NCBI GenBank assembly: GCA_028532905.1
Contig: JAQQAM010000160.1
Location: forward strand, 1-49,474
From: Spirochaetales bacterium
Lineage (GTDB): Bacteria; Spirochaetota; Spirochaetia; DSM-2461
DNA length: 49,474 bases
Reading direction: 5' to 3'
Part shown: piece by piece, positions 3,711 to 12,297 of the stretch
Layout of the letters: the number at the start of each line of letters is the position of its first letter
Numbering within the stretch: position 1 is the stretch's first letter
Made by a program: the position numbers and the translations under genes
Notes under the pieces: model-generated
The model's database searches: none
The model's input: the letters and a program-made list of their open reading frames with translations, nothing else
What the model was told of the DNA's origin: nothing

Positions 3711-5525
3711 TTAAATTGGAAAGGGCGAAGAGGAACCGTTCCCATCACGAAATTCCTCCTCATCCAGAAATATGAGACCAGCCTTTTCCATCTCTCTTAC
3801 AAGTGAAATGACATTGTGTTGAGCTTCCTCCATCATTCCCAGGCGGTAGGGTCTTCCTGAATCCAGAATGGGTTTTATGTTTTGTATTGTCTCTTTGGAA
3901 AGTTTTGCGAGAATACGCTCTTTTATCTCCTCATTCAAAGGCTTAAGGCCAAGGGCGAGATCTCTAGGGTCTGCCTTTTGGGCGACCATATTCAGAGATT
4001 CTTCTGTCAGTATGACAAGATCCTCCATGACGAACATGTTTTCCTTTAATTGCTGAGCAGTCTCTGGATGTCTGGATTCCAGCTGGTTGATAACAGAGGC
4101 TTCGATGCTACGACGGCTGTGCTGCAGTATCTCCGCTGTTTTAAGAATTCCAGAAGATAAGAAGTTTTTTTGGTTTCCGAAGTTTCTTATCCTTTCATTC
4201 AGATATTCTGATATTAGAATGGGAATTCCTGGTTCCACTAGATCCGTATGGCTGATTCTCTCACAAAGCTCTGCTTGTTCTTCGGAATTGAAGTTCTCAA
4301 GATAGCCAGCGGCCAGGGGGGATGGAAGAAGAGAGAGAAGCAGTGCATTCAGCTGAAAAGGTTCAGTATTAAAAAGGTCGCAAATAAACTCAAGATCACC
4401 TTGATTGATAAAATCGAAATCTGCTGCATCAGGTAATGATGAGGTTTCGTTTAGCAGAATTTGATCGTTTAACAGATCCTGTCCCTGGTTCAGCTCTGCA
4501 ATTCTTCTATCAAGGTTTTGGCTTAGTTCATCAAGCTTTGATGTCAGTAAGTCCAGTTTATGTTCGCTGCTATTCTCATTATTTCCAGATAATAGCTTTA
4601 ATAAATCCGTGTCCTGTACTTCTTCCTTCACAATACTGAATTCCTTAAAGTCTTTCAGTACTTTCAGTTTCTCAATTCTCCTGTCACCCCAGCTGAGAAG
4701 GGCTTTTCCTTCATCCAGACCTTCGACAGATATAATATCTCCTTTTTTCATATTAAGGAGCTCGTCTAAGCTGATTTCTTTACAATCGCATTCGATGCGG
4801 CCGGGAATTTTTACTTTATTGAATTCTGGCTTTCTCAGGTTCTGCATTTCTCTTTCTCTAAGACCGAAGTAATGAATGGGAGAGAGCCTGCTCATAATTG
4901 GTTCCATAAACAGGTAGGGAATACAGAGTTCCATCTTGTGCGATTCTCCAAACATAGTAACTTCCCAAGTCAAGAGAATAACCATTTCCGTGGGAGGGAG
5001 AATTTGAGCGAAAAGGATATTGTGTTCCATGTTTTTAACATAGAAGGGGAAGTGGCCGATTCCTTCCCAGGATTTGTTCAAAGGAATCAGCATTTTAGAA
5101 ACAATATGTTTCATCAATTTTATACTTAAACCACTGAATCCTTTGAAGTTTCCATTATCAGGTATTTGCTGACCATAGCTGCGCACCTGCATGAGATAAC
5201 TCAGGCGATTGCTTAGAGTCAAAAGGGCTGAACTTTTAATCTTTTTGTTTCCAAGGATGGCAAATGATGCCGGTTCTTCCTGTGGGTACAAGGATGTAAA
5301 TTCGCTATAGGTGCATTGATCAACGGAAGACAAATGTATCTCTACTTTTTGTTGAAACATGGCAGAAAGTTTCACTGTGGCAAGTCGGGCATAATTTTCA
5401 TGAATCATTGCCATGGTCCGTATCTGTTCTTTAGAAAATTTATCCGGACGTCGGAAATCCATGAAGACGACTCTTGGATTTCCAGTTCGATTCTTATATT
5501 TGGGAAGATAGTTTGTTTCAGCCAT
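3711..5525 (-). CDS. FliM-FliG fusion flagellar switch protein
   Basis: A 604-residue protein joining two C-ring proteins that are normally separate. Residues ~24-220 match the FliM middle domain (DFRRPDKFSKEQ, MIHENYARL, SSVDQCTYSEF, PPTEMVILLTWEV, CIPYLFMEPI). Residues ~237-305 form a SpoA-like domain. A probable coiled-coil linker (~320-358) leads to FliG middle and C-terminal domains (~375-590; MFVMEDLVILTEES, DLALGLKPLNEE, EEAQHNVISLVREMEKAG). The FliM CheY-P peptide (EIDALL type) and the FliG N-terminal FliF-binding domain are absent. The FliM GGxG loop is degenerate (YLMQVRSYG), as is the partner EHPQ motif of FliG (TEPFQ). The motif aligned with E. coli K264 and R297 is kept (Lys528, Arg561), but R281, D288 and D289 positions are Glu545, Pro552 and Ile553. 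ATG at 5525 is preferred over GTG at 5528 because AGGAG lies six bases upstream. It overlaps fliN by 8 nt. Confidence 0.9.
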   Translation of the reverse strand: MAETNYLPKYKNRTGNPRVVFMDFRRPDKFSKEQIRTMAMIHENYARLATVKLSAMFQQKVEIHLSSVDQCTYSEFTSLYPQEEPASFAILGNKKIKSSALLTLSNRLSYLMQVRSYGQQIPDNGNFKGFSGLSIKLMKHIVSKMLIPLNKSWEGIGHFPFYVKNMEHNILFAQILPPTEMVILLTWEVTMFGESHKMELCIPYLFMEPIMSRLSPIHYFGLREREMQNLRKPEFNKVKIPGRIECDCKEISLDELLNMKKGDIISVEGLDEGKALLSWGDRRIEKLKVLKDFKEFSIVKEEVQDTDLLKLLSGNNENSSEHKLDLLTSKLDELSQNLDRRIAELNQGQDLLNDQILLNETSSLPDAADFDFINQGDLEFICDLFNTEPFQLNALLLSLLPSPLAAGYLENFNSEEQAELCERISHTDLVEPGIPILISEYLNERIRNFGNQKNFLSSGILKTAEILQHSRRSIEASVINQLESRHPETAQQLKENMFVMEDLVILTEESLNMVAQKADPRDLALGLKPLNEEIKERILAKLSKETIQNIKPILDSGRPYRLGMMEEAQHNVISLVREMEKAGLIFLDEEEFRDGNGSSSPFPI

Positions 5526-5760
5526 CACTTTCTCCTGCCACAGCTGTTATTCTGATACCGAAGTTTTCATCAATCACCACGACTTCACCAATGGCAACAG
5601 TCTGGCCTGATGCCTGCAGTTTTACGGGTTCCCCTGCATAAGAATCCAGTTCAACAATGCTGCCCTCTTTCAATGAGGCAAAGTCTTCTAAGGTCATTCC
5701 CGTTTCTCCCAGTACGACTTGTACAGGTACCCTGACTTGTTTTACCGGACTCAGTTTCAT
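5518..5760 (-). CDS. fliN: FliN-like flagellar switch protein (SpoA domain)
   Basis: An 80-residue single SpoA domain. The pattern VPVQVVLGETGMTLEDF, then GSIVELDSYAGEPVKL, then GEVVVIDENFGIRI, is the FliN C-terminal signature. It lacks the N-terminal extension found in most FliN and FliY proteins. FliN normally forms the lower C-ring with FliM and contacts the export ATPase complex through FliH. The gene begins one base inside the stop of the upstream SpoA gene (TAATG arrangement) and overlaps the FliM-FliG gene, so all three should be made together. No other flagellar gene is nearby, so this is separate from a main flagellar operon. Confidence 0.85.
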   Translation of the reverse strand: MKLSPVKQVRVPVQVVLGETGMTLEDFASLKEGSIVELDSYAGEPVKLQASGQTVAIGEVVVIDENFGIRITAVAGESDG

Positions 5761-5999
5761 TATTTCTCTCCTGCCATTTCGGTGATTTTGAAGTAATACT
5801 TTCCCCTCTTCTTAATTAGCTTTCCTCTTGCAATAGTCAGGCCCTGAGCATCCAACTCAAAAATAGAAGTCTTTGTTATTTTTAGGGATCCTTTCTCTTG
5901 TATTTCCATCATTTCCTCGGAACTGATTTCTTGCCTGTCCAATATAAGGGAAGGACGGATCGTGATTTTATCCCCCTGAGGGATGTCTTTAGTTTCCAT
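5760..5999 (-). CDS. Divergent SpoA-domain (FliN-like) protein
   Basis: A 79-residue protein that follows the SpoA fold pattern more loosely than its neighbour: a first strand (RPSLILDRQEIS), a short helix with SSEEMMEIQEKGSLKI, then GLTIARGKLIKKRGKYYFKITEM, matching the G.xIA.GE.....xxxRIT ending of FliN. It is first in the switch operon, with AGGAG five bases before ATG. A heterodimer with the FliN downstream, as for paired SpoA domains in injectisome C-rings, is a reasonable inference but is not shown by sequence. No canonical promoter could be assigned in the 126 bases upstream. Confidence 0.65.
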   Translation of the reverse strand: METKDIPQGDKITIRPSLILDRQEISSEEMMEIQEKGSLKITKTSIFELDAQGLTIARGKLIKKRGKYYFKITEMAGEK

Positions 6000-6125: not shown

Positions 6126-7001
6126 TTAAATTCTAACTTTTCGTCTGTATTCTCCGGGAGTAACAGACATCGCCCTTTTAAACATACGATTGAAAAAAGA
6201 AATATTATTATAACCCACTGAAAAAGCTATTTCCGTAATGGTCAAACTACTGTTTCTTAGTAGAAGACAGGCTTTTTCTATTCGGACTCTGTTTAAGTAG
6301 GCAAAGATGGTCGTTCCAGTCTTAATCTTGAAGCTTCTTGAAAGGTAGGAGGCATTCAGGGCACAACGTGAAGCCATTTCGTCCAAACTCAACGGATTGT
6401 CAAACTGGATTCGGATATGTTCAATCAAATCTTCAATACTCCAGATTTCATTTTTTTCATCAATTGATTTGGAAAGGTCGATTTCATTTAGAGAAGGAAG
6501 GCTTTTCAGCTGGATGAGCAGACTGAGTAGGAACATTTCCTTATCAAGTAAACCTGAAACAGTTGATGTATCCAGCGTCAATCGTTGAAATAATGACCTG
6601 AGTTTCTTTAAAGAATCATCATTGTGTATTTCATAGAACTGTTCTTTACATCGGCCGGAAGGAGAGAGCTCTATTGATTTCCCGGGAGCCTTCAGGTATA
6701 GGGGATTCAATAACAAGGAAAGCAAGTCATCTTCTGAAAGGCTAAGAGTTAAAAACTTGCCATCAATATGTATGGGTTGGTCGGAAGGGAAAAGAATGAT
6801 AATTGGTGTTGTATTTTTAAACCTTTTCTTTTTTGTTTGTATCCCACTATAGGCAGAAATGAGACAGAAATGCACTTCATCAGATACCAGTTCTTTATGA
6901 ATGGATTGGAGAGAGGCGGTTCTTTTTGGCGTGTTCAGATCCGTACCTGATGATCCTGGCATAAAACAATTGTATATTAATAAAAAGGAGGATGCTTCCA
7001 C
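6126..7001 (-). CDS. AraC-family transcriptional regulator
   Basis: A 291-residue protein. The last ~100 residues carry the double HTH of AraC/XylS regulators: LSLDEMASRCALNASYLSRS for the first HTH, and ITEIAFSVGYNNISFFNRMF followed by TPGEYR for the second. The N-terminal ~180 residues are not recognised; no cupin motif is evident. The start is uncertain: GTG at 7001 has no clear ribosome site and an internal ATG (MPGSSG, about residue 14) is possible. It lies upstream of and co-oriented with the switch operon, 126 bases away, and downstream of the terminator of the pyrimidine operon. It could control either; the sequence does not decide. Confidence 0.75.
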   Translation of the reverse strand: MEASSFLLIYNCFMPGSSGTDLNTPKRTASLQSIHKELVSDEVHFCLISAYSGIQTKKKRFKNTTPIIILFPSDQPIHIDGKFLTLSLSEDDLLSLLLNPLYLKAPGKSIELSPSGRCKEQFYEIHNDDSLKKLRSLFQRLTLDTSTVSGLLDKEMFLLSLLIQLKSLPSLNEIDLSKSIDEKNEIWSIEDLIEHIRIQFDNPLSLDEMASRCALNASYLSRSFKIKTGTTIFAYLNRVRIEKACLLLRNSSLTITEIAFSVGYNNISFFNRMFKRAMSVTPGEYRRKVRI

Positions 7002-7160: not shown

Positions 7161-8429
7161 TTATACTGATTCTTTATCTGTTTTCAGTACAGCATTCAGA
7201 AGTACTGTCGCCCCGGAGGTACAGTGTTCAGGAGTGGAATACTCAGGCTCACAATGGGAGAGCCCATCCCTTGACTGTACAAAAATCATCGTACTGGGGA
7301 GCATATATGCAGCAAACTGTGCATCATGTCCTGCACCTGAGTGGAGAACCATATGGGAAACACCCATCTCTTCTGCAGCATCTTTGACATAGCCGAAGAG
7401 GGTTTTGTCCCAGTAAACAGTATCTCTGTTCCACATTTTCTCAACTTCACATTTACACCCGGCCCACTCTTTCTCAGCACAGCTTTTTACAATACTCAGC
7501 ACCTGGGCCAGAACATCGGGATTTTCATGACGTACATCTATACAGAAGTCAACATAATCCGGAACACAAGTATGTACATTGGGATGGCATACGATTTCTC
7601 CTGTTGTATAGACCAGTTCAGGATAACCGAGTTTGTCAATTTCCTGATGAAGATGGCAAATCGTCTGAGATGCAGCAAAAAGGGCATCCTGCCGCTTTGG
7701 CATGGGGAAGGTTCCGGCATGAACCGTCTGACCGTAAAATCGGAAACGGTAGTTAAACATTCCAAGAACACAATCGACTACTCCTACATCCTTGGTGGCA
7801 TCTTCCAGAATGGGGCCCTGTTCAATATGGATTTCAAACATGCTCTTGTATTTATCCGGACTCAGACGGTATTTTTTGTCTCCTTTGTATCCGGAACGGT
7901 CCAGTGCGGCGCCAAAAGAATCCGATCCGTCCAGAACGCTTTTTGAAACCATCATATCCTCAAACTTGAATTTCCCTTTAATCGCTTCCGGCAGATAATC
8001 CCAGCAGACAATTCCGGAAACCATCATAGCAGGTGGATAAAGAGACCCCTCTTCATTGGTCCATATCATGGCAGTAAGAGGATGTTTGTGTTCGATTCCT
8101 TCTGAAGCGACTGTTTCAAGAACTTCCATTGCCGAAAGAACGCCGAGAATACCATCATAATTTCCTCCGTTCTTTACACTGTCTGTATGACTTCCCATTA
8201 CAATTCGTTTCGCATCAGGATCTGTTCCCGGAAGAGTCGCATACATATTGGCAACATCATCCACTTCAATCACAGCACCTATGGCTTCCATTCTTTGAAC
8301 AAACTCTTTCCGGGCCATAATATCTTCAGGACTCAGAGTATAGCGGGTTATTCCGCCATGACCGGCATCTCCGAACTGACTGAAGGTTTTTATCTTTTCC
8401 GTCATTCTCTCTAAACTGCATTTATACAT
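7161..8429 (-). CDS. N-carbamoyl-beta-alanine amidohydrolase (M20 family)
   Basis: A 422-residue metallohydrolase of the allantoate amidohydrolase / beta-ureidopropionase group. Metal-site motifs of the family are visible: GSHTDSVKNGGNYDG, then WTNEEGSLYPP, then EIHIEQGPILE, and a late HSGAGHDAQF. In the reductive pyrimidine pathway it would cleave N-carbamoyl-beta-alanine to beta-alanine, CO2 and ammonia in the cytoplasm. It is the last gene of the five-gene operon. ATG at 8429 is chosen because AAGGAG precedes it; that ribosome site sits in the end of the aminotransferase gene. Sequence alone cannot exclude allantoate or another N-carbamoyl amino acid as substrate; assignment rests on the neighbouring preA and dihydropyrimidinase. 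Confidence 0.85.
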   Translation of the reverse strand: MYKCSLERMTEKIKTFSQFGDAGHGGITRYTLSPEDIMARKEFVQRMEAIGAVIEVDDVANMYATLPGTDPDAKRIVMGSHTDSVKNGGNYDGILGVLSAMEVLETVASEGIEHKHPLTAMIWTNEEGSLYPPAMMVSGIVCWDYLPEAIKGKFKFEDMMVSKSVLDGSDSFGAALDRSGYKGDKKYRLSPDKYKSMFEIHIEQGPILEDATKDVGVVDCVLGMFNYRFRFYGQTVHAGTFPMPKRQDALFAASQTICHLHQEIDKLGYPELVYTTGEIVCHPNVHTCVPDYVDFCIDVRHENPDVLAQVLSIVKSCAEKEWAGCKCEVEKMWNRDTVYWDKTLFGYVKDAAEEMGVSHMVLHSGAGHDAQFAAYMLPSTMIFVQSRDGLSHCEPEYSTPEHCTSGATVLLNAVLKTDKESV

Positions 8430-8434
8430 AATAA

Positions 8435-9763
8435 TTACTCCTTAACCAGTGTGTCTGTATATTCCAGGGCTTTACTGATGGCAGTGACCGAACGGTCGAT
8501 CTCTTCTCTGGTGATAATCAGGGGAGGTGCCATAAACAGGAAGTCCCACTTGCAGAAGCTGTACACTCCGTTTTCATACATAATCCGGGTCAGTTCTCCC
8601 GAGACATTGCGCTTGCGGTCGGCAAATCCCGCCAGCTCTGCCTTCGTTTCCCTGTTTTCGGTCAGCTCGATACAAGCCCAGAGTCCTTTAATTCTGACAT
8701 CTCCCACAGAGGGATGTTTCTCCTTGAGCTTCAGAAGTTCCCCTTTCAGGTACTCTCCCTGGGCAGCTGAGGCTTCTATCAGATTCAGTCTCTTGTATTC
8801 TTCAATATTGGCAATAGCAGTAGCACAGGCCAGAGTATGGCCTCCGTAGGTAAGTCCCCCCATAAAGGGTTTGTTCCAGAAGAAATCCCATAACTTCTTT
8901 GACCAGATCATACAGCCGAGCTGTACATAACCCGATGTGATTCCTTTGGCTGTGGTGATGATATCGGGGATAACATCAAAATGTTCAATGGCGAACCATT
9001 TACCCGAACGTCCCCATCCTCCCATAGTTTCATCAATAACCATAAGAATACCGTGTTGATCACAAAGCTCCCGGACTCCCTGCATGAAGGATTTTGAGGG
9101 AATGATGATGCCGTTGGTTCCGACAATGGGTTCCATGAAAACAGCAGCGATTGTATGGGGACCATCCAGCATTATCTGTGTTCTCAGTGCTTCCAGAGCT
9201 CTGAAATTAGCCTCTTCCTCAGTGGTGGAACCAAAGGGACAGCGGTAGGGATAAGGTCCGAAGAATTTAACTGCCCCGGAAATACCGGGTTCTCCGGCCC
9301 ATCGGCGGGGATCCCCTGTCAATGTAATGGCTCCTGCAGTTGCTCCATGGTAGGATCTCCAGCAGGAGTAGATCTTATGCCGTCCGGTATATGCTCTGAC
9401 AGCTTTAATGGCGTTTTCAATGGCTTCAGCACCGCCGTTTGTGTAGAAAACATAGTCCAGATCTCCGGGAGTCACTTCGCTAATCATCTGGCCGAGTCTG
9501 GCTTTTGCTTCTGTACCGAACCCTGTCCCAACATAACAAACCTTATCGATCTGGGTCTTCATTGCCTCTTTTACATGTGCATTGTTATGTCCCAGATTTA
9601 TATTAAGTAATCCTGAACAGAAATCCACATACTCATTTCCTTCCGTATCGTACATCATCACACCATCGGCGCGATCAATTATCATGGGGTGAACATCCTT
9701 TTGTGCTTTCCAGCTGTATACTGTGTGTTCACGATCCAGTTTTTTTATTTCTTCTGTTGTCAT
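8435..9763 (-). CDS. Class III aminotransferase (probable beta-alanine transaminase)
   Basis: A 442-residue PLP fold-type I enzyme. Visible elements: the cofactor region TNGGAEAIENAIK, the SYHGATAGA segment, EPIVGTNGIIIP, the aspartate motif VIDETMGGWGRSG and the Schiff-base lysine in TTAKGITSGY. In context it would transfer the amino group of beta-alanine to a keto acid, giving malonate semialdehyde. The start at 9763 (MTTEEIKK) is preferred to upstream ATGs at 9775 and 9793 because GAGGA lies at the right distance and the longer forms would overlap the alcohol dehydrogenase. It lies between the dehydrogenase (8-nt gap) and the amidohydrolase (5-nt gap). Other omega-amino substrates remain possible. 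Confidence 0.8.
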   Translation of the reverse strand: MTTEEIKKLDREHTVYSWKAQKDVHPMIIDRADGVMMYDTEGNEYVDFCSGLLNINLGHNNAHVKEAMKTQIDKVCYVGTGFGTEAKARLGQMISEVTPGDLDYVFYTNGGAEAIENAIKAVRAYTGRHKIYSCWRSYHGATAGAITLTGDPRRWAGEPGISGAVKFFGPYPYRCPFGSTTEEEANFRALEALRTQIMLDGPHTIAAVFMEPIVGTNGIIIPSKSFMQGVRELCDQHGILMVIDETMGGWGRSGKWFAIEHFDVIPDIITTAKGITSGYVQLGCMIWSKKLWDFFWNKPFMGGLTYGGHTLACATAIANIEEYKRLNLIEASAAQGEYLKGELLKLKEKHPSVGDVRIKGLWACIELTENRETKAELAGFADRKRNVSGELTRIMYENGVYSFCKWDFLFMAPPLIITREEIDRSVTAISKALEYTDTLVKE

Positions 9764-9771
9764 TTTTTTCC

Positions 9772-10875
9772 TCATTTCACAAGACTGTTGCATAAGATGT
9801 TTTGGAGTTCTTCTTCTGAAGGACAGGGATCTGTATTTGCAATATTGCCTGCTTTGATGGCAATGGATGCAAATTTATCCGCTTCTTCCTTAGTCAGCTC
9901 AAAATGATCCAGCAGGGAATCAATTAGACGACTGAGTGCATCAATGCTCTCGAATCCCATGGCTGAAAGGATCTTTTTGACTTCCAGTGGTCTGGAAGCT
10001 GCTATGTATTTAAAATATTCACCCAGGAGGTAGCCGTTGGCTACACCGTGATCCAGTCCCTTAAAGTAGGTCAGGGAATAGCCCATAGCATGAACTGCTG
10101 TTGTTCCTGACTGGGAAATTACAATCCCTGCCAGAGTAGAGGCATAAAGGAGTGCTTCTCTGTCTTCAGAACAGGGAGTCTCTCCGGATGCCATTTTCGG
10201 CAGGATACTTCCAATTATGGTAAGGGATTCCAGAGCCAGCGCCTGTGCCGGCGGAATGGCTCTTACCGCAAGGTATCCCTCTGCCGAATGACTTAATGCG
10301 TCAATTACTGTTGCAGCTGTGATAGGAAAGGGAAGATCCTCTGTATACTTCCCATCCAGAAAGGCAACAGCCGGATAAACCTGCTCCGAATTCAAGAAAC
10401 TTTTAGTCTGAAGTTTATTATTGGTAAGGATGGAATAAGGTGTAACCTCACTTCCGGTTCCCGCAGTCGTAGGAACGGCGACAAGGGGAAGAACCTTGCT
10501 GAAAAATCTCTGTCCCAGAAGTTCATCGTCACTTACCTCATCTGCTGCCAGAACAGCTACCGCCTTGGCAGCATCCATAGGAGAGCCGCCCCCTATGGCA
10601 ACTACAAAATCTGCTTCTGCCCTAACAGCCGCACCGGCAGCCTCCCGGACATCTTCAAGAGAGGGATTCGGCTTAACCTTGTTATAGTATTCCCAGGCGA
10701 TGCCCTGACTCTCAAGAGCTGCAGTCATATCAGCGAGAGCGCCGATTTTTTTTGCTGAACTCTTCCCGCTCATTATGAAGGCCTTTTTTCCCAGGGGGCT
10801 AATCAGACCGGCGTTTTCCTTCACACAGTTCTTACCGGACACAATTCGTGTGGGCATATAATAGGAGAATTTCAT
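9772..10875 (-). CDS. Iron-type alcohol dehydrogenase (candidate 3-hydroxypropionate dehydrogenase)
   Basis: A 367-residue group III (iron-dependent) alcohol dehydrogenase. The nucleotide-binding GGGSPMDAAKA and PTTAGTGSEVTPY motifs are present, as are metal ligands of the family in DALSHSAEGY (Asp, His), TTAVHAMGY (His) and GLDHGVANG (His). Placed between the dihydropyrimidinase and the aminotransferase, it probably handles malonate semialdehyde made from beta-alanine, reducing it to 3-hydroxypropionate. That would regenerate NAD(P)+ and fit a fermentative organism. Substrate assignment is inference from context. The ATG has AGAGG upstream; the stop precedes the aminotransferase start by 8 nt. 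Confidence 0.8.
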   Translation of the reverse strand: MKFSYYMPTRIVSGKNCVKENAGLISPLGKKAFIMSGKSSAKKIGALADMTAALESQGIAWEYYNKVKPNPSLEDVREAAGAAVRAEADFVVAIGGGSPMDAAKAVAVLAADEVSDDELLGQRFFSKVLPLVAVPTTAGTGSEVTPYSILTNNKLQTKSFLNSEQVYPAVAFLDGKYTEDLPFPITAATVIDALSHSAEGYLAVRAIPPAQALALESLTIIGSILPKMASGETPCSEDREALLYASTLAGIVISQSGTTAVHAMGYSLTYFKGLDHGVANGYLLGEYFKYIAASRPLEVKKILSAMGFESIDALSRLIDSLLDHFELTKEEADKFASIAIKAGNIANTDPCPSEEELQNILCNSLVK

Positions 10876-10887
10876 TTTTACCTCTGT

Positions 10888-12297
10888 TTATATAATTTCG
10901 TTATCAGATTCTCTGGATACGAATGAACCGTATCCGGCCTCGCCCAGCCACTCACCGTCCTTAACCAGAGTTTTACCGCGAACCATAACCTGCCTGGGCC
11001 ATCCTTTGACGTTCATCCCCTCGTAGCAGTTATAATCGACATTCATATGATGACTCTCTGCACTGATAGTGTGTTCTGCTTCAGGGTCAAAAAGAACAAG
11101 ATCTGCATGGGCACCAACTGAAACGGAACCTTTCTGAGGATACATTCCGAATATTCGGGCTGCATTTGTGGAAGTAAGCTCAACAAAGCGGTTGGGTGTG
11201 ATTTTCCCGCTGTTCACTCCCAGGTGCCACATAACAGGAAAACGGTCTTCAATACCGGGCACACCATTGGGGACTTTAACCCAGGACTCTTTTCCAAGTT
11301 CCTTGCCCGGAAGACGCCCCTCCTTTCCCCCTTCAAACCAGAAGGGGCAATGGTCGGTGGCAACGGTTTGTACAGTACCGTCCCTGAGCGCCTTCCATAC
11401 AGCGGCCTTATCCGCCTCTCCCTTTGGGGGAGGAGAACAGATGTATTTGGCTCCTTCAAAATCTTCTGTATCAATCCAGTCATCGGTAATATGGGTGTAC
11501 TGCACACAGGTTTCTCCCATTACCGGAAGGCCTTTGGCCCGGCCCTTTCTGACCGCTTCCAATCCTTCTTCACAGGCAATATGCACAATATAAAGTGGTG
11601 CTTTTGTCATCTCGACAAATGAAACAGCCCGGGCAGTTGCTTCAGCTTCAATGGCGGCAGAGTGCGCAATATTATGGTAACCCATTGCATTCTTTCCCTC
11701 TGCCAGAAGCTCTTCTGTGATAAGGGCAATGGCATCCCCGTTTTCCGCATGTACCATAGTGGTCATCCCGCTCTCGGCACTCTTTTTCAGAGCTTTGAGG
11801 AAAGTCGTATCATCAACCTGAAAAGCACCCTTATAGGCCATGAAAATTTTCAGACTGGAAACCCCTTCTTTCAGAAGTTCCGGTATTTCGTCAATTGAGC
11901 TGTCTACCGGGTCTGTCAGAGCAACATGAAAACCATAATCCACAGCAGCTTTCCCCTCAGCCTTCTTTTTCCACTCCTGTATCGCATCAACCATGGTTTT
12001 TCCCTTCTGCTGTATGGCAAAATCAATATGGCAGGTGGTTCCTCCAAATGCGGCAGCTTTGTGTCCGGTAAAAAAATCATCAGAAGAGGATGTACCGCCG
12101 AAGGGCATATCCAGGTGTGTATGAGGATCAATTCCGCCGGGCATTATAAGAAGGCCGGAAGCATCAATCACTTCATCGACATCCACATCGTCCATATCCC
12201 TGGACATGGATGTGATTATGCCTTCTTCAATTAGCAGATCTGATTTAAATGTTTCTCCAGCCGTGACAACGGTACCGTTTTTGATAAGTGTTTTCAT
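10888..12297 (-). CDS. hydA: Dihydropyrimidinase (D-hydantoinase family)
   Basis: A 469-residue cyclic amidohydrolase of normal length. The binuclear metal site is recognisable: GGIDPHTHLDMPFGG (HxH), SLKIFMAYKG (the lysine that is carboxylated), MVHAENGD and YIVHIACEEG (histidines), and VATDHCPF (aspartate). It opens the ring of 5,6-dihydrouracil or dihydrothymine to the N-carbamoyl beta-amino acid. It lies 35 bases after preA and 12 before the dehydrogenase, with GGAG eight bases before ATG. A hydantoinase activity on other cyclic imides cannot be excluded from sequence. Confidence 0.9.
   Translation of the reverse strand: MKTLIKNGTVVTAGETFKSDLLIEEGIITSMSRDMDDVDVDEVIDASGLLIMPGGIDPHTHLDMPFGGTSSSDDFFTGHKAAAFGGTTCHIDFAIQQKGKTMVDAIQEWKKKAEGKAAVDYGFHVALTDPVDSSIDEIPELLKEGVSSLKIFMAYKGAFQVDDTTFLKALKKSAESGMTTMVHAENGDAIALITEELLAEGKNAMGYHNIAHSAAIEAEATARAVSFVEMTKAPLYIVHIACEEGLEAVRKGRAKGLPVMGETCVQYTHITDDWIDTEDFEGAKYICSPPPKGEADKAAVWKALRDGTVQTVATDHCPFWFEGGKEGRLPGKELGKESWVKVPNGVPGIEDRFPVMWHLGVNSGKITPNRFVELTSTNAARIFGMYPQKGSVSVGAHADLVLFDPEAEHTISAESHHMNVDYNCYEGMNVKGWPRQVMVRGKTLVKDGEWLGEAGYGSFVSRESDNEII

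Follow-up and report, generated by a model that had tools for sequence, protein, structure and literature searches.

A conserved natural FliM–FliG fusion in a regulator-linked gene cassette of Spirochaetota

Introduction

At the heart of bacterial motility lies the highly conserved FliG/FliM/FliN switch, whose components are normally encoded by separate genes. Other species tolerate the loss of single charges in FliG, and FliN-type proteins dock FliH. The pairing of FliG R281 with E98 of MotA matters for torque, while that of D289 with MotA R90 serves stator placement (PMC4030992). In other bacteria, FliM and FliN are exchanged with a pool in the cytoplasm (PMC4030992). Several related systems have been described. 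Borrelia has an accessory FliG1 that is dispensable for flagellar synthesis (PMC7225975), and Campylobacter has duplicated and specialised C-ring parts (FliM, FliN and FliY; PMC6946799). The EpsE clutch and the YcgR brake slow the motor conditionally at FliG (PMC3000366, PMC10140304), and FliF has been joined covalently to FliG by engineering (PMC6079021, PMC11481574).

Here we analyse a locus in which FliM and FliG are parts of a single chain. It lies in a stretch of 49,474 nucleotides from a Spirochaetales bacterium (assembly GCA_028532905.1, contig JAQQAM010000160.1), referred to below as the window. An earlier note, made from the letters of this stretch alone, had drawn attention to the locus.

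Results

The fusion gene occupies 3711..5525 on the minus strand. It starts with ATG at 5525 and encodes 604 amino acids without internal stops. The earlier note had read the product as a FliM middle domain, a SpoA domain, a coiled linker and the FliG middle and C-terminal domains; the open frame and Pfam confirm this, with a weak SpoA part. Residues 23–214 are the FliM middle domain (PF02154, E 5.8e-38, 131.2 bits against a cut-off of 27). The SpoA/FliM_C region (about 236–300) is degenerate, and its Pfam match, at residues 236–271, is shortened and under the cut-off (E 0.0014). A linker with a long helix (about 320–359) leads to FliG_M (381–452, E 1.7e-9, 38.2 bits) and FliG_C (481–587, E 2.1e-21, 76.6 bits). 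Both FliG domains score above the Pfam cut-off and fall within residues 375–590, where the note had placed them. The window fusion does not reach the cut-off of the NCBIfam FliM equivalog (162.8 against 219.6), which the two scanned relatives do pass. Its FliG half aligns by profile to 1LKV without gaps, and Foldseek matches the chain to solved structures of FliM and FliG. The AF2 model of the window fusion (pLDDT 69.7, pTM 0.47) predicts a 40-residue helix at 320–359; all AF2 models are of single chains and of moderate quality (pTM 0.45–0.47).

The same architecture, for which the note had proposed a profile search in other spirochaetes, was found at no fewer than 27 distinct loci in at least 26 Spirochaetota genomes after duplicates were removed. 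The search covered 80 relatives, samples of the phylum (393 genomes) and of the class (395 genomes), and a GTDB contig set (best 80 matches); outside Spirochaetota, fusions were sought solely among the best 80 matches of the GTDB contig scan. Carriers belong to at least 13 family codes (f1, f5, f6, f29, f31, f32, f34, f36, f48, f52, f77, f78 and f81), two of these 13 outside the class of the window. The distribution, which the earlier note had missed, is wide but patchy. The fusion is present in 23 of the 395 genomes of the class sample. Six genomes of the window's own genus were sampled; two have it and four lack it. Carriers with names are metagenome assemblies, and no cultured, named species was identified among the carriers found.

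The source assembly is a draft of 296 contigs, and a merger of separate fliM and fliG genes by assembly or annotation could in principle produce such a chain. The other assemblies speak against this. The fusion recurs in them at 26 further loci, a linker motif resembling Q[DE]xLxDQ is kept in most copies, and the host genome's own FliM and FliG are encoded elsewhere. Because the homologues at these further loci are full-length, similar in size and set in an identical gene order, the fusion is neither an assembly error nor a product of chance, and we regard an artefact as practically ruled out.

The two genes upstream encode small SpoA proteins. The first product (5518..5760, minus strand, 80 amino acids) is FliN-like, with one SpoA domain (FliMN_C, E 1.5e-22, 79.8 bits against 23.8) and an NCBIfam fliN score of 82.2 bits, just under the cut-off of 84.05. 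The second (5760..5999, minus strand, 79 amino acids) is a divergent SpoA protein (FliMN_C, E 1.4e-5, above the cut-off) with a homologue at all 27 loci. The FliN gene overlaps the start of the fusion gene by a few bases, the second SpoA gene overlaps the FliN gene, and an AGGAG-like ribosome site stands upstream of each overlapping gene. The order SpoA–FliN–fusion is kept throughout (27/27 loci). The compact three-gene operon of the earlier note thus stands as far as these overlapping genes are concerned, but the unit is larger than first described because an AraC-family gene, missed at that stage, belongs to the conserved neighbourhood. This gene (6126..7001, minus strand) encodes a transcriptional regulator of 291 amino acids with a divergent N-terminal domain (HTH_18, E 1.7e-23). 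An AraC gene adjoins the cassette at each of the 23 loci with enough flank, upstream at 18 and downstream at five; the remaining four loci are contig ends and lie outside this count. With only about 76 AraC-type domains in the 5-Mb host genome, linkage at every scorable locus is far beyond chance. Control of the cassette by the AraC protein is suggested by adjacency, which gives no proof of regulation.

One genome (G501) carries two different complete cassettes (L240 and L241), with the AraC gene downstream of one and upstream of the other. Further along the window, at 7161-12297 on the minus strand, genes resembling a hydantoin/pyrimidine degradation cluster were recognised by eye (hydrolase, aminotransferase, alcohol dehydrogenase and a dihydropyrimidinase-like protein). 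A role in anti-phage defence was rejected, as PADLOC gave no match. Plasmid carriage was rejected as well; matches in the plasmid search were to separate FliM or FliG and never covered 80% of the query.

The FliG halves of 23 fusions group in a single clade when outgroups are included in the tree (support 98/98). Canonical spirochaete FliG is the sister group of this clade, and the second-FliG paralogues lie apart from it. The tree of the FliM halves, used without rows L026 and L038, whose sequences were apparently taken from the wrong strand, is poorly resolved and does not reject a single origin (AU p 0.24). The final trees exclude four rows that are among the longest, or truncated, and the window's own copy is one of these. 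An independent origin was considered for the slowly evolving fusion at L086 and rejected: its FliG half is nested in the fusion clade and its FliM half gives the AU value just quoted.

Selection on the cassette was estimated from pairs of related genomes; because dS is near saturation, the dN/dS ratios are rough. Between G012 and G007 the fusions are 72.8% identical (dN/dS 0.12) and the AraC proteins have a dN/dS of 0.14, while the normal FliM and FliG are 98.5–98.8% identical with a dN/dS of 0.012. The cassette FliN is its best conserved member (dN/dS 0.037). The fusion gives 0.12–0.29 in the two measurable pairs, and its FliG_C domain 0.17 in one pair. These ratios indicate that the cassette is under purifying selection, about tenfold weaker than that on normal FliM and FliG. 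For a decaying or selfish paralogue with no present function one would expect fast change and patchiness, and both are seen: amino acids change about ten times faster than in normal FliM and FliG, and four genomes of the same genus do without the cassette. Against decay, all 27 loci have retained open frames (541–647 amino acids) in constant order with FliN and SpoA, and the dN/dS values of both pairs are those of a constrained gene. We consider this explanation improbable. Between the fusions at L242 and L243 (G138 and G331), synonymous divergence is 0.21 in the SpoA region and 0.5–0.9 in the FliM and FliG_M domains, which suggests recombination.

The fusion was said in the earlier note to lack both the CheY-P peptide of FliM and the N-terminal domain of FliG, and motif alignment and Pfam scans bear this out. 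FliG_N is absent from all six fusions scanned with Pfam, and none precedes FliG_M in the window copy; weak FliG_N matches in fusions fall on FliG_M itself. The CheY-P peptide (LSQDEIDxLL) is present in nine of nine canonical FliMs and absent from the window copy and from 26 of the 27 fusions. The sole exception, L086 (2868-4724, plus strand), retains a similar N-terminus, LTKEDVDGLL. Its FliM half is 62–69% identical to ten of the 12 aligned canonical FliMs and 51–55% identical to the other two; judged by these sequences, L086 is possibly an intermediate form.

The stator-facing charges of FliG_C are also broken, a loss missed by the earlier note. With E. coli numbering, all 20 canonical spirochaete FliGs keep K/R264, R281, acids at 288 and 289, and R297. 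The window fusion has K, E, P, I and R at these positions, and none of the 26 fusions that have a FliG_C region keeps all five charges. R281 survives in one of the 26 (E in 12, D in three, A in six), and both acids 288/289 likewise in one. K/R264 is kept in 25 and R/K297 in 24, so some stator contact is possible. FliG_C is barely recognisable in the fusion of G149, and in that of G077 it has been deleted outright, with 14 bp to the next gene.

The contact motifs between FliM and FliG_M are mostly kept. The EHPQ motif has E or D in 26/26 fusions and Q in 24/26, MFXF is kept in most, and the FliM contact loop has one invariant glycine. The FliG-contact motif GGXG is found in about half of the relatives and is degenerate in the others. 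The window copy has lost it (SYGQQIP) and has EPFQ for EHPQ; its FliM–FliG contact may therefore be altered.

The host genome has a separate normal FliM (C270), a normal FliG (C28) and a FliN/FliY-type protein (C270), which settles the earlier note's question of whether such a set exists. It also encodes a second FliG (L051:2749-3939, plus strand, C274), which is complete (396 amino acids, with FliG_N) and divergent, and whose group is a fast-evolving clade apart from canonical FliG and from the fusions. Smaller proteins with FliG_C-like parts were noticed too. One of 137 amino acids (L052:10830-11243, minus strand, host contig C98) combines a FliG_C-like domain (38.4 bits), in which an SKR motif is kept, with a weak MazE/AbrB-like N-terminus that scores under the cut-off; G071 has a FliG_C match of similar size (C1:2963857-2964207). 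Another, of 247 amino acids (L087:6977-7720, plus strand), has a lone FliG_C-like C-terminus and is found downstream of a fusion cassette, at a distance of about 3.5 kb.

Exactly one FliF/YscJ is present in every one of the 24 genomes tested, which include 16 fusion carriers, and the host genome has one FlhA. A second flagellum, a secretion system or an injectisome with an SctQ-type ring was therefore rejected (one FliF/YscJ in 16/16 fusion genomes). The flagellar MotA of the host has the usual R..D/E charge motif. Members of the MotA/ExbB family number two in the fusion genomes G020, G029 and G238, and also two in G003 and G005, which have no fusion; the host genome and G012 add one short or weak match, and G002 holds a third protein of unassigned type. 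No dedicated extra MotA-family stator is thus consistently found in the fusion genomes checked relative to the non-fusion ones, and with counts alike a dedicated second stator was rejected. With one FliF, one FlhA, normal FliM and FliG and no consistent extra stator, the cassette is accessory to one motor and not a second flagellum, or it acts outside that motor.

The cassette could supply an alternative rotor ring that produces torque but does not respond to CheY-P. Placed at one cell pole, for instance, such a ring would give the asymmetric, CheY-independent reversal known in spirochaetes. In its favour, one cassette provides FliG_MC, FliM, FliN and an additional SpoA protein, most fusions have kept K264 and R297, and FliG_C is under purifying selection. 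A CheY-independent mechanism has been suggested for spirochaete reversal, and the position of Borrelia FliG1 is asymmetric (PMC7225975). The broken R281 and acidic pair in nearly every fusion argue against such a ring, as do the member entirely without FliG_C, the want of a FliG_N for binding FliF or of a second FliF, and the absence of a consistent extra stator. We judge it unlikely. The same evidence bears on the earlier note, which had allowed for an alternative FliF-independent ring or for mixing into the normal motor: the former is weakened, and mixing into, or acting on, the one existing motor is the better fit.

Action outside the rotor wall, as a soluble or export-linked scaffold such as a second FliH–FliI docking platform, would agree with the strong conservation of the cassette FliN and with the lack of a FliF-anchoring domain. 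A FliM middle domain and a FliG_M with mostly kept E..Q contacts would, however, be superfluous in a scaffold, and we judge this explanation as unlikely as the alternative rotor ring.

Discussion

Our tentative reading is that the cassette encodes a regulated C-ring variant that enters or caps the single C-ring and acts as a brake, clutch or direction lock. The AraC protein would switch the cassette on, and the fusion product would join or cap the existing C-ring. Entry could proceed through the FliM middle domain, the mostly kept FliM–FliG_M contact motifs and the base formed by the cassette FliN and SpoA proteins. The 40-residue helix, estimated at about 60 Å, could return the chain from the FliM_C base to the level of FliG. 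Without FliG_N the fusion should be unable to anchor to FliF itself, without the CheY peptide it should be unable to hear CheY-P, and with a FliG_C stripped of MotA-facing charges poor torque uptake is expected. Motors that contain the fusion would, judging from these lost motifs, have lowered torque and be deaf to CheY-P. On the periplasmic flagellar motor, such a product would be expected to work as a brake, clutch or direction lock under regulation. A more specific and somewhat more doubtful proposal is that the cassette re-equips the single periplasmic motor with a fusion that is deaf to CheY and takes up no torque, which would make it a natural brake or direction lock and an undescribed mode of control.

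Rotation in spirochaetes is under an unexplained CheY-independent control (PMC7225975), for which the fusion is a concrete candidate. Being a conserved natural protein, it also gives structural studies a FliM–FliG pair that is joined covalently. The earlier note knew of no natural FliM–FliG fusion; we likewise found no description of one in the open-access literature, most subscription papers being beyond our reach.

The closest known systems are the C-ring proteins of spirochaetes themselves. The cassette resembles them in domains, fold and the company of FliN, and its FliG half is the sister group of their canonical FliG. It differs in joining FliM and FliG in a single chain, in lacking FliG_N, the CheY peptide and intact torque charges, and, unlike ordinary C-ring genes, in having its own AraC gene and a position outside the flagellar operon. 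Borrelia FliG1 and the second FliG of the host are, like the fusion, accessory FliGs beside an essential one; unlike the fusion, the host's second FliG keeps FliG_N, and its group is a separate clade. Campylobacter shares with the cassette the duplication and specialisation of C-ring parts, but these are separate proteins without a FliG fusion and are components of the core motor. The slowing exerted by EpsE and YcgR is the effect proposed here for the fusion; their folds are unrelated to it, and they are not C-ring paralogues. The engineered FliF–FliG fusions likewise link neighbouring rotor proteins covalently, but they are laboratory-made and concern another pair of partners. The families of the parts are known, whereas their arrangement is new: a regulator-linked fusion lacking the torque charges.
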